NCBI GenBank assembly: GCA_904419785.1 | Contig: CAJFSY010000003.1 | Span: 1 to 64,000 of the forward strand | Source: an uncultured Neglectibacter sp. | GTDB lineage: Bacteria > Bacillota > Clostridia > Oscillospirales > Acutalibacteraceae | Direction: 5' to 3' | DNA: 64,000 nt | Shown here: one piece after another, positions 28,726 through 32,780 of the stretch | Layout: the number at the start of each line of letters is the position of its first letter | Position numbering within the stretch: the stretch's first letter is position 1 | Made by a program: the position numbers and the translations under genes | Notes under the pieces: model-generated | Seen by the model: the letters and a program-made list of their open reading frames with translations, nothing else | Told to the model about the DNA's origin: nothing | Database searches by the model: none

Positions 28726-30816
28726 TCACACCTCCATGATGATCGGCAGGATCATGGGGCTGCGGCGGGTCTTTTGATACAAGAAGCGGGAAAGCTCCTC
28801 TTTGATGCTCTGCTTCATGCCGCTCCAATCCCGCACATGGTTGCGGGCACATTCCTCCAGGGTATTATACACCAGATCACGGGCTTCGTCCATAAGAGCT
28901 TCAGATTCCCGCACATATACGAACCCGCGAGAAACAATGTCCGGGCCGGACACCACCTGTCCGCTGGAAGCGTCGATGGAACACACCGCCACGATCAGGC
29001 CGTCCTCTGAAAGATGGCGCCTGTCGCGGAGCACGATGCTGCCCACATCTCCCACGCCGAGACCGTCCACCATCACGCTGCCGGCGGGCACGTCGCCCAG
29101 CTGCTTCATGTGGTCCTCGTGCAGCTCCAGCACGTTGCCGATATCGCCAATAAAGATATTCTCCCGTGGCACGCCCATCATCATAGAAAGCCCCGCGTGT
29201 TTTCTCAGATGTTTCTGCTCCCCATGGACAGGGATGAAATATTTGGGGCGGGTCAAAGCCTGCATCAGTTTTAATTCTTCTTGGCAGGCGTGGCCTGAAA
29301 CGTGCACATCATACATGCTTTCGTAGATAACCGTGCAGTCCTGCTTTAAAAGTTCATCTACCACGGCTCCCACAGTCTTTTCGTTGCCGGGAATGGGACG
29401 GGCGGAAATGATGATAAAATCGTTGGGGTTGATGGCCACCTGGCGGTGGTCGGAAAACGCCATGCGGGTCAGCGCTGACATGGGCTCCCCCTGGCTGCCG
29501 GTGGTGATCAGCACCAGCTGGTCGGGCTCATAACGGTTGATCAGGTTCAAATCCACCAGCACGCCGTCCGGCACATCCAGATAGCCCAGCTCGCTGGCGA
29601 TGCCCATCACGTTGACCATGCTCCGCCCGGAAAGCGCCACTTTCCGTCCATATTTCACCGCACAGTTGATGATCATCTGCACCCGGCTGATGGAGGAAGC
29701 GAACGTCGCCACAATGATCCGCTTGCCTTCGGCCCGCATAAACAGGGAGTCCAGGGAATTGTTCACCGTTTGCTCAGTTTGGGTAAAGCCCGGCCGCTCC
29801 GCGTTGGTGGAATCGGCCAGCAGGGCCAGCACCCCTTCCTTGCCCAGCTCGGCGAACCGGGCGAGGTCGATCATGCCACCCTCAGCGGGAGTCATATCGA
29901 TCTTGAAGTCACCGGTGTGGATGATCACGCCGGCAGGGCTGTGGATGGCCAGGGCCACCGCGTCGGCAATAGAGTGGTTCACATGGATCAGTTCCACATC
30001 CATGCATCCCAGCTTGATATGGGACCCTGCGGGAGTCACGTGAAGCTTTGCCGAACCGTTCAAATTGTGCTCTTTCAGCTTGCCTTCGATCAGGCCGATG
30101 GTCAAAGCCGTGCCGTAAACCGGCACATTCAGTTTTTTCAGCAAATACGGCACCGCGCCGATATGGTCCTCGTGGCCGTGGGTAATCACCACGCCCCGGA
30201 TTTTTTCCCGGTTTTTCTCTACGAACGTAAAATCCGGAATAACGCTGTCCACGCCGGGCATATCGTCATCAGGGAACGAAAGGCCGCAGTCCACGATGAT
30301 CATATCGTTCTGGCACTCATACAGCGTGAAATTCTTGCCGATCTCGTTTAACCCCCCAAGGAAATACACCTTGATAGGCGGTTTCTGAGATTTCTTCGGA
30401 CGGCCCCGACCTTTGCGGGAAGCCCGTTTTTCCTGGGCTTCCTGCTGGGCTTTCATAGCCTCCACCTGGGCCGCTGTTTGGCTGATAGCGGGCTTCTGGC
30501 CCTTTCTTCCGCCCTTGGCTCCAGCTGTTTTATGGCCGTTCTCGGTCTTTTTCTTGCCCACAAGCCCTTGGCTTTTCTCCGCAGCCTTTTTAGATTCCGC
30601 TTTCTTCCCGTCTGTCCTTTTCGTCTCCGGCTGCTTGTTTTCCGATTTGCTCCGGGAGCGCTGCCCGCTCTTTTCCGAAGTCTTTTTAGGGCCTGCGATC
30701 TTCCCGATTCTCGGGGCGTCTACCGCGCCGCTCAAAACCTGATCCTGCTGGCGTCCGCTATTTTCCGATGACAGAGAGCGTCTTGTTCTAGTATTCTTTT
30801 TTTCTTTTTCTGACAC
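28726..30816 (-). CDS. rnj: Ribonuclease J with a long basic N-terminal extension
   Basis: A 696-aa metallo-beta-lactamase/beta-CASP ribonuclease expected to process and degrade RNA by 5'-exo and endo cleavage. The HxHxDH zinc motif THGHEDH lies near residues 212-218, followed by other metal ligands such as HTGDFKID, and the C-terminal domain completes the family. A GTG start at 30816 is set by AAGGAGG upstream. The catalytic region only begins at about residue 147. The preceding stretch is low-complexity, Lys/Arg/Ser/Gln-rich and contains GRGRPKK, an AT-hook-like core. Such an extension is not part of the core family. Confidence 0.92.
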   Translation of the reverse strand: MSEKEKKNTRTRRSLSSENSGRQQDQVLSGAVDAPRIGKIAGPKKTSEKSGQRSRSKSENKQPETKRTDGKKAESKKAAEKSQGLVGKKKTENGHKTAGAKGGRKGQKPAISQTAAQVEAMKAQQEAQEKRASRKGRGRPKKSQKPPIKVYFLGGLNEIGKNFTLYECQNDMIIVDCGLSFPDDDMPGVDSVIPDFTFVEKNREKIRGVVITHGHEDHIGAVPYLLKKLNVPVYGTALTIGLIEGKLKEHNLNGSAKLHVTPAGSHIKLGCMDVELIHVNHSIADAVALAIHSPAGVIIHTGDFKIDMTPAEGGMIDLARFAELGKEGVLALLADSTNAERPGFTQTEQTVNNSLDSLFMRAEGKRIIVATFASSISRVQMIINCAVKYGRKVALSGRSMVNVMGIASELGYLDVPDGVLVDLNLINRYEPDQLVLITTGSQGEPMSALTRMAFSDHRQVAINPNDFIIISARPIPGNEKTVGAVVDELLKQDCTVIYESMYDVHVSGHACQEELKLMQALTRPKYFIPVHGEQKHLRKHAGLSMMMGVPRENIFIGDIGNVLELHEDHMKQLGDVPAGSVMVDGLGVGDVGSIVLRDRRHLSEDGLIVAVCSIDASSGQVVSGPDIVSRGFVYVRESEALMDEARDLVYNTLEECARNHVRDWSGMKQSIKEELSRFLYQKTRRSPMILPIIMEV

Positions 30817-31126
30817 GTACTGTTCCTCCTTACGCGAAGTGGTGTTAATTACATCACGTTTTGCTTTCGTGAAAGAGGCCAATGGTCCTGGAAAACGCCG
30901 CTTTCATAGCGGTGTTTGGGCTAGAAAGGCGTTCGGCAGCGCAAGCGCCGGATAAACTCTCCATTCCGGCGCCAACCTTTCCGCTTTTGTTCCGGACCGC
31001 GGGAGCTTCCCTGCCCCCCCTGAGCGCCCATTTCCAAAAATAATACAAGCGCTCCTGTTTCCGTTTCTACCGGCCCCTTTTTCCGTTCTATCAAAATACA
31101 CGCGGCATTTGCCGCAGCGATGCCAT
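30817..31126 (-). promoter_or_regulatory. Structured untranslated leader upstream of RNase J
   Basis: No convincing coding sequence was found in this 310-nt stretch. It holds GC-rich inverted repeats, including a perfect 8-bp stem GCGCCGGA/TCCGGCGC (30945-30972), GCGGCA/TGCCGC (31102-31115) and an imperfect CCGC-type hairpin at 30894-30917. It lies between the upstream terminator hairpin (31127-31173) and the rnj ribosome binding site, so it would be the 5' leader of rnj mRNA if transcription reads through. Confidence 0.5.
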
Positions 31127-31280
31127 AAAAAACCGTCGTCTCACAGGCATGGCTGTTCCAGCCAGTTGAGACGCAAACAATCATATGGCCACGGCGTGCC
31201 CGCGGCCCATTCCCCTTCATCCTGCCGCGTTGCAAGCGGCTTGGGGACCCACATGCCGGAGAACCTCTTCTCCGGGTAAT
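31127..31280 (-). ncRNA. Unidentified structured RNA of about 150 nt with its own promoter and terminator
   Basis: On the minus strand a perfect promoter is followed by a transcript that could start near 31280. A perfect 8-bp hairpin CCGGAGAA/TTCTCCGG (31256-31275) comes first. Next are GCCGC/GCGGC inside flanking CCCC/GGGG, and an 8-bp GGCCGCGG/CCGTGGCC stem. The transcript ends in a terminator hairpin (CGTCTCA/TGAGACG with an inner GGCT/AGCC stem, 31137-31173) and six T residues. No start codon with a ribosome binding site was found. It does not match what I know of 6S RNA, tmRNA, SRP RNA, RNase P or common riboswitches. It could be a stand-alone sRNA or an attenuated leader of rnj. Confidence 0.6.
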
Positions 31281-31286
31281 ATAGAT

Positions 31287-31315
31287 ATTGTACCGTTTTG
31301 CCTTTGCCCTGTCAA
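31287..31315 (-). promoter_or_regulatory. Consensus sigma-A promoter upstream of the unidentified RNA and rnj
   Basis: TTGACA (31310-31315) and TACAAT (31287-31292) on the minus strand with a 17-nt spacer. No coding sequence follows for more than 450 nt. Confidence 0.88.
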
Positions 31316-31469
31316 GCCGCAAGGCCAGAGGGCTTCCAGATATTCCTAGTTTCGTCCCGCCCCTTCCGCTTTATTCCGCCGACCCCTTCTAAAAACCTTT
31401 CTCAGACATTTGACACGCGAAATTTCCCGATATAAAGAGAAATTTTTTTAAAATAATCGCCTATGGGTA

Positions 31470-31498
31470 TTGAAAAGTATACTAAAAAGGTGTATATT
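31470..31498 (+). promoter_or_regulatory. Promoter of iscS-iscU
   Basis: TTGAAA (31470-31475), a 17-nt spacer, and TATATT (31493-31498). A short inverted repeat TATAC...GTATA (31478-31496) covers the spacer and -10 box and could be a repressor site. The stretch 31316-31469 between the two divergent promoters shows nothing else recognisable. Confidence 0.65.
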
Positions 31499-31580
31499 TA
31501 GTTCGACTCAAGTAAACACTGGTGGAAAAGGGATAAAAAACTACCTTTCCATCTACCTATATAGAAAGGATGATACTTTC

Positions 31581-32780
31581 ATGAACAGAAAGGTCTACGC
31601 GGATAACGCCGCCACCACCGCCGTTTCCCCGGAAGTGCTGGAGGCCATGCTGCCTTATTATAAAGAAATATATGGAAATCCTTCCAGCTTATACGCCTTG
31701 GGCCAAGAAGCCAGAAAGCCCTTGGAAGAAGCCCGGGCCACCGTGGCGGAATGTTTGGGCGCCCAGCCCCGGGAGATCTATTTCACCAGCTGCGGCACGG
31801 AAAGCGACAACTGGGCCATCAAAGGCGCCGCCCACGCCATGAAGAAAAAGGGCAAGACCCATATCATCACTTCCGCGTTTGAACACCACGCGGTGCTGCA
31901 CACCTGCCAGGCTTTGGAAAAAGAAGGCTTTACCGTCACCTATTTGGACGTTCACGAAAACGGCATCGTCCGGCCTGATGAACTGGAAAAAGCCATCACC
32001 GAGGAGACCGGCTTGGTCACCATCATGTATGCCAACAACGAAATCGGCACCATCCAGCCCATTTCTGAGATCGGCGCTATCTGCAAGCGCCATGGGGTTC
32101 TCTTCCACACCGACGCGGTACAAGCCGTGGGCAATGTGCCGATCGACGTAAAGGCGCAAAACATCGATATGCTCTCCCTCAGCGGTCACAAGCTCCACGC
32201 GCCCAAGGGCGTAGGCGCTCTCTACATCCGCAGCGGTGTTACCATCCAGAACTTTATGGACGGCGGCGCTCAGGAGCGGGGCCACCGTGGCGGCACGGAA
32301 AACGTGGCTTCCATCGTGGGACTGGCCACCGCTATGAAGCTGGCCTGCTCCACCATCGACCAGCGGGCGCAGCGTCTTTCCGCCATGCGGGATAAGCTTA
32401 TTGAGGGCCTTTCCAAAATAGAGCGCAGCCGCTTAAACGGCGACCCTGTCCACCGTCTGCCCGGAAATGTAAGCTTCTGCTTCCAGGGAGTGGAAGGGGA
32501 ATCCCTGCTGCTGATGCTGGACATGAAAGGCATCAGCGCTTCTTCCGGCTCCGCCTGCACCAGCGGTTCCTTGGACCCCAGCCATGTGCTGCTGTCCATC
32601 GGCCTGCCCCATGAAGTGGCACACGGCTCCCTGCGGCTCTCTTTTGGGGATTACAACACCATGGAGGACGTGGACTATATCCTGGAGACTTTGCCTCCCA
32701 TTATCGAACGGCTTCGTTCCATGTCCCCGCTGTGGGATGCTATTGAGAGCGGCCGGGTAAACTACGACCAGTATATGTAA
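31581..32780 (+). CDS. iscS: Cysteine desulfurase, IscS/NifS family
   Basis: A 399-aa PLP enzyme that takes sulfur from cysteine for Fe-S cluster assembly. The N-terminus [15 protein letters not shown] is typical, the PLP lysine is in [12 protein letters not shown], and the sulfur-carrying cysteine is in [15 protein letters not shown]. The ATG at 31581 is preceded by AGAAAGGA; upstream open codons lack a start signal. It pairs with the scaffold gene iscU 122 nt downstream. No IscR/Rrf2 regulator gene lies next to it. Confidence 0.94.

Follow-up and report, generated by a model that had tools for sequence, protein, structure and literature searches.

Does the hairpin-rich stretch ahead of the RNase J gene (rnj) of an uncultured Neglectibacter species encode a small RNA of its own, or is it the beginning of the rnj messenger and possibly a place where RNase J acts on its own expression? 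Both RNase E and RNase Y are reported to control themselves, and a preliminary description of this DNA had set both readings side by side: a new small RNA, or a leader of RNase J. We considered the question within a window of 64,000 nucleotides, by which we mean the whole stretch of DNA that was analysed, and in the corresponding loci of relatives.

The rnj promoter and its leader

The following features frame the locus.

31315..31287, minus strand: rnj promoter, read from the sequence, with the -35 element TTGACA at 31315-31310, a spacing of 17 nt and the -10 element TACAAT at 31292-31287
28726..30816, minus strand: rnj (RNase J, TIGR00649), with a GTG start at 30816 that follows GGAGG
31581..32780, plus strand: divergent cysteine desulfurase gene (NifS; TIGR03402, 595.8 bits, cut-off 530.75)

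The rnj product (28726-30813) scores 612.7 bits against TIGR00649 (cut-off 400) and 708.3 against the RnjA family NF047419, which is under that family's cut-off of 820. Its catalytic core is preceded by a long N-terminal extension of about 145 residues (30816-30390, minus strand), rich in lysine and arginine, and the extension is also long, and variable, in the relatives that we read.

The promoter had been called a consensus one, and it does match the consensus on the minus strand at 11 of 12 positions; we infer an rnj start site near 31280. An important aspect of its assignment is recurrence among relatives. A protein search covered 29 genomes of the genus, and a contig scan covered the best 80 of 261 loci. 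Five of the 29 genomes (G002, G003, G016, G023 and G024) were left out, rnj there being undetected, incomplete or located at the end of a contig, which gave 25 usable upstream regions: 24 genus members, the window included, and the Scatolibacter locus L051. In one genome (G012) contig C154 carries the leader and contig C246 the body of rnj, and the two were treated as one gene by inference with their sequences not joined. Exactly one TTGACA promoter, with a spacing of 17 or 18 nt and a TA(A/C)AAT element, is present in all 25 regions, at promoter-to-start distances of 95-570 nt (470 in the window, 124 in L047). In a further 58 loci, a promoter with at least 10 of 12 matches was found in 51, a count that comes without a shuffle control; six had no promoter and one had no start. 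Loci L053, L054 and L056 were assessed by reading alone, outside the promoter scan.

Since the promoter is that of rnj in every usable region, the stretch 31281-31127 (hereafter the segment) makes up the opening third of the rnj leader. The leader reading of the preliminary description is thereby upheld: the segment is very probably the 5' part of an rnj mRNA leader of about 464 nt, running from near 31280 to the GTG at 30816, and promoter, leader and RNase gene follow one another on one strand, as expected of a structured RNase mRNA leader. Because the nifS neighbour is divergent, a terminator in the segment would act on rnj transcripts.

On the nifS side, a stretch of about 35 nt with GTATAC/GTATA (31465-31501) lies over the nifS promoter and recurs in many of the matched relatives (query positions 100-136). 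It resembles an operator, perhaps one for an Rrf2/IscR-type regulator; a repeat scan of the region found no strong perfect palindrome.

Structure and conservation of the segment

Within the segment, and on the same strand, we distinguish the following.

31256..31275, minus strand: hairpin H1, near the mRNA 5' end, from the minimum-free-energy fold; 7 of 8 pairs kept in the sister species
31211..31247, minus strand: hairpin H2, CCCC/GGGG with an inner stem, from the minimum-free-energy fold in the window; folds in the sister species vary and are ambiguous
31187..31207, minus strand: hairpin H3, from the minimum-free-energy fold; 8 of 8 pairs kept in the sister species
31127..31172, minus strand: terminator-like hairpin T1, from sequence and folding, with a core stem at 31172-31138 (-15.2 kcal/mol) and U6 at 31132-31127
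31254..31141, minus strand: open frame of 37 codons from an AUG at 31254, with GAGG upstream; sequence not conserved

The three good hairpins of the preliminary description were recovered. Together with the terminator-like hairpin and its U6 they give a minimum free energy of -66.2 kcal/mol (z = -2.90, equalled by none of 200 shuffles), and further shuffles with varied segment ends gave z of -1.72 (60 shuffles, 164 nt) and of -1.98 to -2.98 (300 shuffles). The claim of a terminator with six T residues holds in part. Hairpin and U6 are present, but the strong stem ends 5 nt ahead of the U-run, and extra pairing is needed to close the gap; T1 was listed by a loose terminator scan (-21.8 kcal/mol) but is absent from a stricter scan, which required a hairpin no longer than 50 nt adjoining at least five T, and in the sister species the U-run is missing and the T1 fold is ambiguous.

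As had been stated, the segment matches no known class: Rfam 15 at gathering score returned only three tRNAs in the window, and nothing up to E = 5 in 30780-31360. 6S RNA (RF00013) was rejected as a candidate, with no match at E <=5 in this interval and the genome's own 6S located at G000:C1:48243-48446 (69.2 bits). The loci of 15 relatives yielded six Rfam matches at gathering score, none of them in the rnj leader. The switch suggested by GGCATG and CATGCC was not supported. The pair exists, but among 500 dinucleotide shuffles 75.8% hold one or more 6-nt complementary pairs at a comparable spacing (mean 1.85), and this pair, the one anti-terminator pairing examined, was set aside as being at chance level; by eye, the two motifs are not complementary in the sister species.

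The absence of a translatable start, on the other hand, was an error, as the AUG at 31254, with its GAGG in the H1 loop, opens a frame of 37 codons that stops inside the T1 hairpin. Such an arrangement would suit a leader-peptide attenuator, in which a ribosome translating the frame would unfold T1, and frames of at least 37 codons behind a Shine-Dalgarno-like site arose in 18 of 500 shuffles. However, the equivalent in the sister species, a frame open across 38 translated codons from a nearby GTG, encodes a peptide unrelated to that of the window, and the alignment has gaps of 2 and 17 nt, neither of them divisible by three. We do not think that the frame is a conserved leader peptide, and an attenuator of this type appears very improbable.

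How the segment has changed among close relatives bears directly on whether it is an entity of its own. The sister species (locus L101, genome G013) has an RNase J core 97% identical to that of the window. Compared with it, identical columns amount to 0.78 upstream of the -35 element, 0.85 in the promoter, 0.51 in the segment, 0.77 in 31126-31066, 0.59 in 31065-30925, 0.65 in the remainder of the leader and 0.61 in the first 60 nt of rnj, which makes the segment the least conserved of the seven parts, though not by far. For promoter, segment and the H5 block described below, the corresponding values are 0.76, 0.29 and 0.87 in L004 and 0.56, 0.25 and 0.74 in L036, the latter with two other parts as low as the segment (0.26 and 0.24). 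A BLAST search with 31330-31120 in 98 other genomes returned three matches: one in G013 (31328-31239), which is the sole rnj-linked match that reaches into the segment, one in G012 confined to the promoter, and one of 30 nt in G022 that is not at rnj. The same kind of search found no second copy of the segment in its own genome.

In the comparison with L101, H1 and H3 retain 15 of their 16 pairs, a count from two sequences without a control, with double changes at one pair in each hairpin (A-U to G-C in H1, G-C to A-U in H3). Folding of the segment of L101 is not beyond shuffles (z = -0.52). The whole leaders fold somewhat better than shuffles, with a mean z of -1.96 and 8 of 25 under -2.

These observations speak to the idea of a trans-acting small RNA, about 155 nt long, that termination at T1 would release. 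In the window species the unit from promoter to U6 is complete, and there is a precedent in UpsM of Rhodobacter sphaeroides, where a Rho-independent terminator in the dcw leader is reported to yield a small RNA restricted to one family (PMC5089854). That system resembles ours in its long leader with a terminator, but it concerns a different gene, and the U-run of T1 is absent even in the sister. Across the 98 other genomes, and with identities of 0.51, 0.29 and 0.25, we found no independent small RNA conserved as a unit, and the new small RNA of the preliminary description could not be sustained as a conserved entity. Since neither the segment nor its U-run is conserved among the closest relatives, and the genome has no second copy, we consider a trans-acting product improbable.

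A hairpin module downstream of the segment

Directly 3' of T1, a shorter element is shared more widely.

31069..31129, minus strand: H5 block, from an alignment of 25 sequences (A1), pair counts, a held-out model and T-richness
31124-31122, minus strand: GGC of the H5 block
31115-31111 with 31106-31102, minus strand: GCGGC/GCCGC hairpin of the H5 block, followed by a U-rich stretch
31092-31080, minus strand: GAUAGAACGGAAA of the H5 block
30925..31065, minus strand: leader region with further structure, comprising GCGCCGG...CCGGCGC and its flanks, aligned among four leaders only

In the window the module reads GGCAU-CG-CU-GCGGC-AAAU-GCCGC-GUGUAUUUUGAUAGAACGG. Equivalents were chosen by eye in all 25 leaders (24 of 24 usable members of the genus and Scatolibacter) and then aligned as A1. 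The hairpin lies 20-63 nt past the -10 element in 20 leaders and 86-169 nt past it in the other five, the window having the longest distance, so that the segment resembles sequence inserted after the start site and ahead of the module.

The hairpins in A1 were hand-picked, and the pair counts from it therefore lean towards structure. They show 89.3% of cells paired, as against at most 57% in slid versions, and 11 cells with changes on both sides as against a shuffled mean of 3.4 (0 of 500 shuffles as high), and the covariation score is 0.192 as against 0.099 in shuffles (again 0 of 500). Two further measures stayed within shuffles, of which 70 in 500 reached the observed three pairs with double changes and 181 in 500 the observed number of further pair types. 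In 14 of 25 leaders the outermost pair is missing; three pairs are invariant, and the CGG/CCG core is kept in all 25. This conserved hairpin falls just beyond the stretch 31127-31315 to which the preliminary description referred.

Because A1 had been chosen by eye, a held-out model (R2) was trained on 11 sequences and searched against 19 untrained loci (160,517 bases, both strands, E <=2). It returned 13 matches, 12 of which fall at the pre-chosen positions in rnj leaders, covering 12 of 14 untrained genus or Scatolibacter loci; four of these have E <0.03 and eight are weak (E 0.06-0.62), and the one off-target match, at 14.4 bits, equals the weakest correct one. The module was not found in L050 or L021, nor in any of five more distant outgroup leaders. 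The test set includes L043, which barely differs from the trained L042, and one close group (L044, L048, L049 and L023) that matched only at model positions 15-37. With another model (R1), the rnj site of the window genome, itself a training sequence, scored 44.6 bits and the next match 18.2 (150 of 575 candidates scored), and no RNase gene was seen beside the four next-best matches when open frames were inspected by eye. Over 150 genomes of the family, R1 gave a match at E <=0.01 in 50, under stricter filters and with 36 candidates scored in each. The 44 loci L116-L159, taken from the best matches only and each covering about 3 kb or less, include four with rnj, all of them training places, and H5 was not extended beyond the genus and Scatolibacter.

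The surroundings of the hairpin also recur. At least six T in the 14 nt after the stem were found in 19 of 25 leaders, compared with 15% of random positions in the same leaders and with 8 of 25 before the stem; an upstream GGC in 19 of 25, compared with 40% of random positions; and an ACGGA-type motif within 40 nt downstream in 12 of 25, compared with 13% of random 40-nt stretches. In its form H5 resembles ordinary terminators, and weak R1 matches elsewhere include hairpins with T-runs. Several long leaders have, by eye, a putative closing pair of GGCAU with AUGC/ACGCC around the H5-H6 region, from which we do not claim a multi-branched domain.

Could the leader be a riboswitch or another ligand-sensing RNA? 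It carries multiple hairpins, and an RNAalifold consensus of four species has pairing in parts of the H5-H6 region. Against this stand the lack of an Rfam match, the low sequence conservation outside the H5 block and the chance-like character of GGCATG/CATGCC, and we give this explanation very little credence.

Terminator-like sites over the whole leaders were counted in two ways. The strict scan found 10 in the 25 leaders, compared with 5.9 in shuffles (sd 2.4, maximum 12) and 7 on the reverse strand. The loose scan found 45, compared with 18-37 across ten shuffles; at least one such site was present in 17 of the 25 leaders, which is within the shuffle range of 11-19. Tandem terminators as a general trait of rnj leaders were weakened by these counts, the strict scan being not clearly enriched and the loose leader count within shuffles.

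Another explanation is a constitutive leader whose hairpins merely protect the mRNA 5' end or slow nucleases, with no regulation. The spread of leader lengths (95-570 nt), the quick shifts in hairpin content and the lack of significant enrichment in the strict scan are all in its favour, but the CGG/CCG core in 25 of 25 leaders and the upstream GGC in 19 of 25 (40% at random) exceed what a generic stem would need. We regard it as rather unlikely, though a contender.

Other motifs were noticed in passing. The long leaders L036, L038, L040, L041, L046, L058 and L021 have a further hairpin with five or six T behind it, about 110-285 nt upstream of rnj; five of these seven are also in the strict scan, and there is no significant enrichment overall. 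GAACGGAAAA occurs upstream of the Shine-Dalgarno site in several Ruminococcus-type rnj leaders (L061, L063, L069, L074, L075, L077, L087 and others). The longer leaders of another group (L067, L070, L088 and L095, with variants in L068 and L080) have a recurrent hairpin-like GAAUAUGG(C/U)CGYUAAAUAUUC.

Candidate control of rnj after initiation

The explanation that we favour overall, at about even probability, is an rnj leader that is tuned after initiation; that hairpin and U-rich sites do the tuning is plausible, though we would put it somewhat short of even. RNA polymerase would start near 31280 and transcribe about 464 nt to the GTG at 30816. The segment would be a fast-changing, hairpin-rich addition before the H5 module (hairpin 31115-31102, GGC before it and U-rich RNA after it). 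Hairpin and U-rich RNA could stop part of the rnj transcripts, serve as a nuclease entry or stalling site, or both, and read-through or the lifetime of the leader would then set the level of RNase J. The identity of the promoter, the position of the leader and the conservation of the module are established; the start site, termination, effects on decay and any feedback by RNase J are presumed.

Tuning after initiation is favoured by precedents in other leaders. In Helicobacter pylori, the activity of the rnj promoter region is reported to rise when RNase J or its helicase partner is missing, and the rnj 5' UTR is proposed to be under negative feedback (PMC5874925). The enzyme is the same, whereas the phylum is distant and the hairpin module is not described in the accessible part of that source; we liken the two leaders by literature description, not by sequence or structure. 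In the rne 5' UTR of Synechocystis 6803, a six-U stretch and premature termination are reported (PMC10989929; PMC7283877); RNase E is reported to cut the U6, and the termination to be modulated (PMC10989929). This is likewise the leader of a major RNase gene, whereas the U6 of our segment is known from sequence alone. In Bacillus subtilis, RNase J1 trims the 164-nt leader of rny, which encodes RNase Y, and the message is controlled through cuts in its 5' UTR and within the first ~100 coding nucleotides (PMC10303841). A core decay enzyme and a long leader are common to both cases; control there is by cleavages, and the part of the source available describes no conserved hairpin module.

A more specific version of tuning after initiation makes H5 (GGC, GCGGC/GCCGC hairpin, U-rich stretch, GAUAGAACGG) an rnj-specific self-control element. 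RNase J, by itself or together with a further nuclease, would use it through premature termination or through entry from the 5' side at the hairpin, and the segment would be a recently gained second terminator stacked ahead of it. We consider this combination doubtful, while self-control of RNase J through its leader, in general terms, is possible.

Leader control of RNase genes is already a known kind of regulation, and feedback on an rnj 5' UTR has already been proposed elsewhere. The accessible parts of the open-access literature on RNase leader control name no element for RNase J self-control, and the H5 module is undescribed as far as Rfam and that literature go. Overall, a short conserved hairpin near the start of the rnj mRNA in a gut genus provides a concrete target for the question of whether RNase J polices itself.
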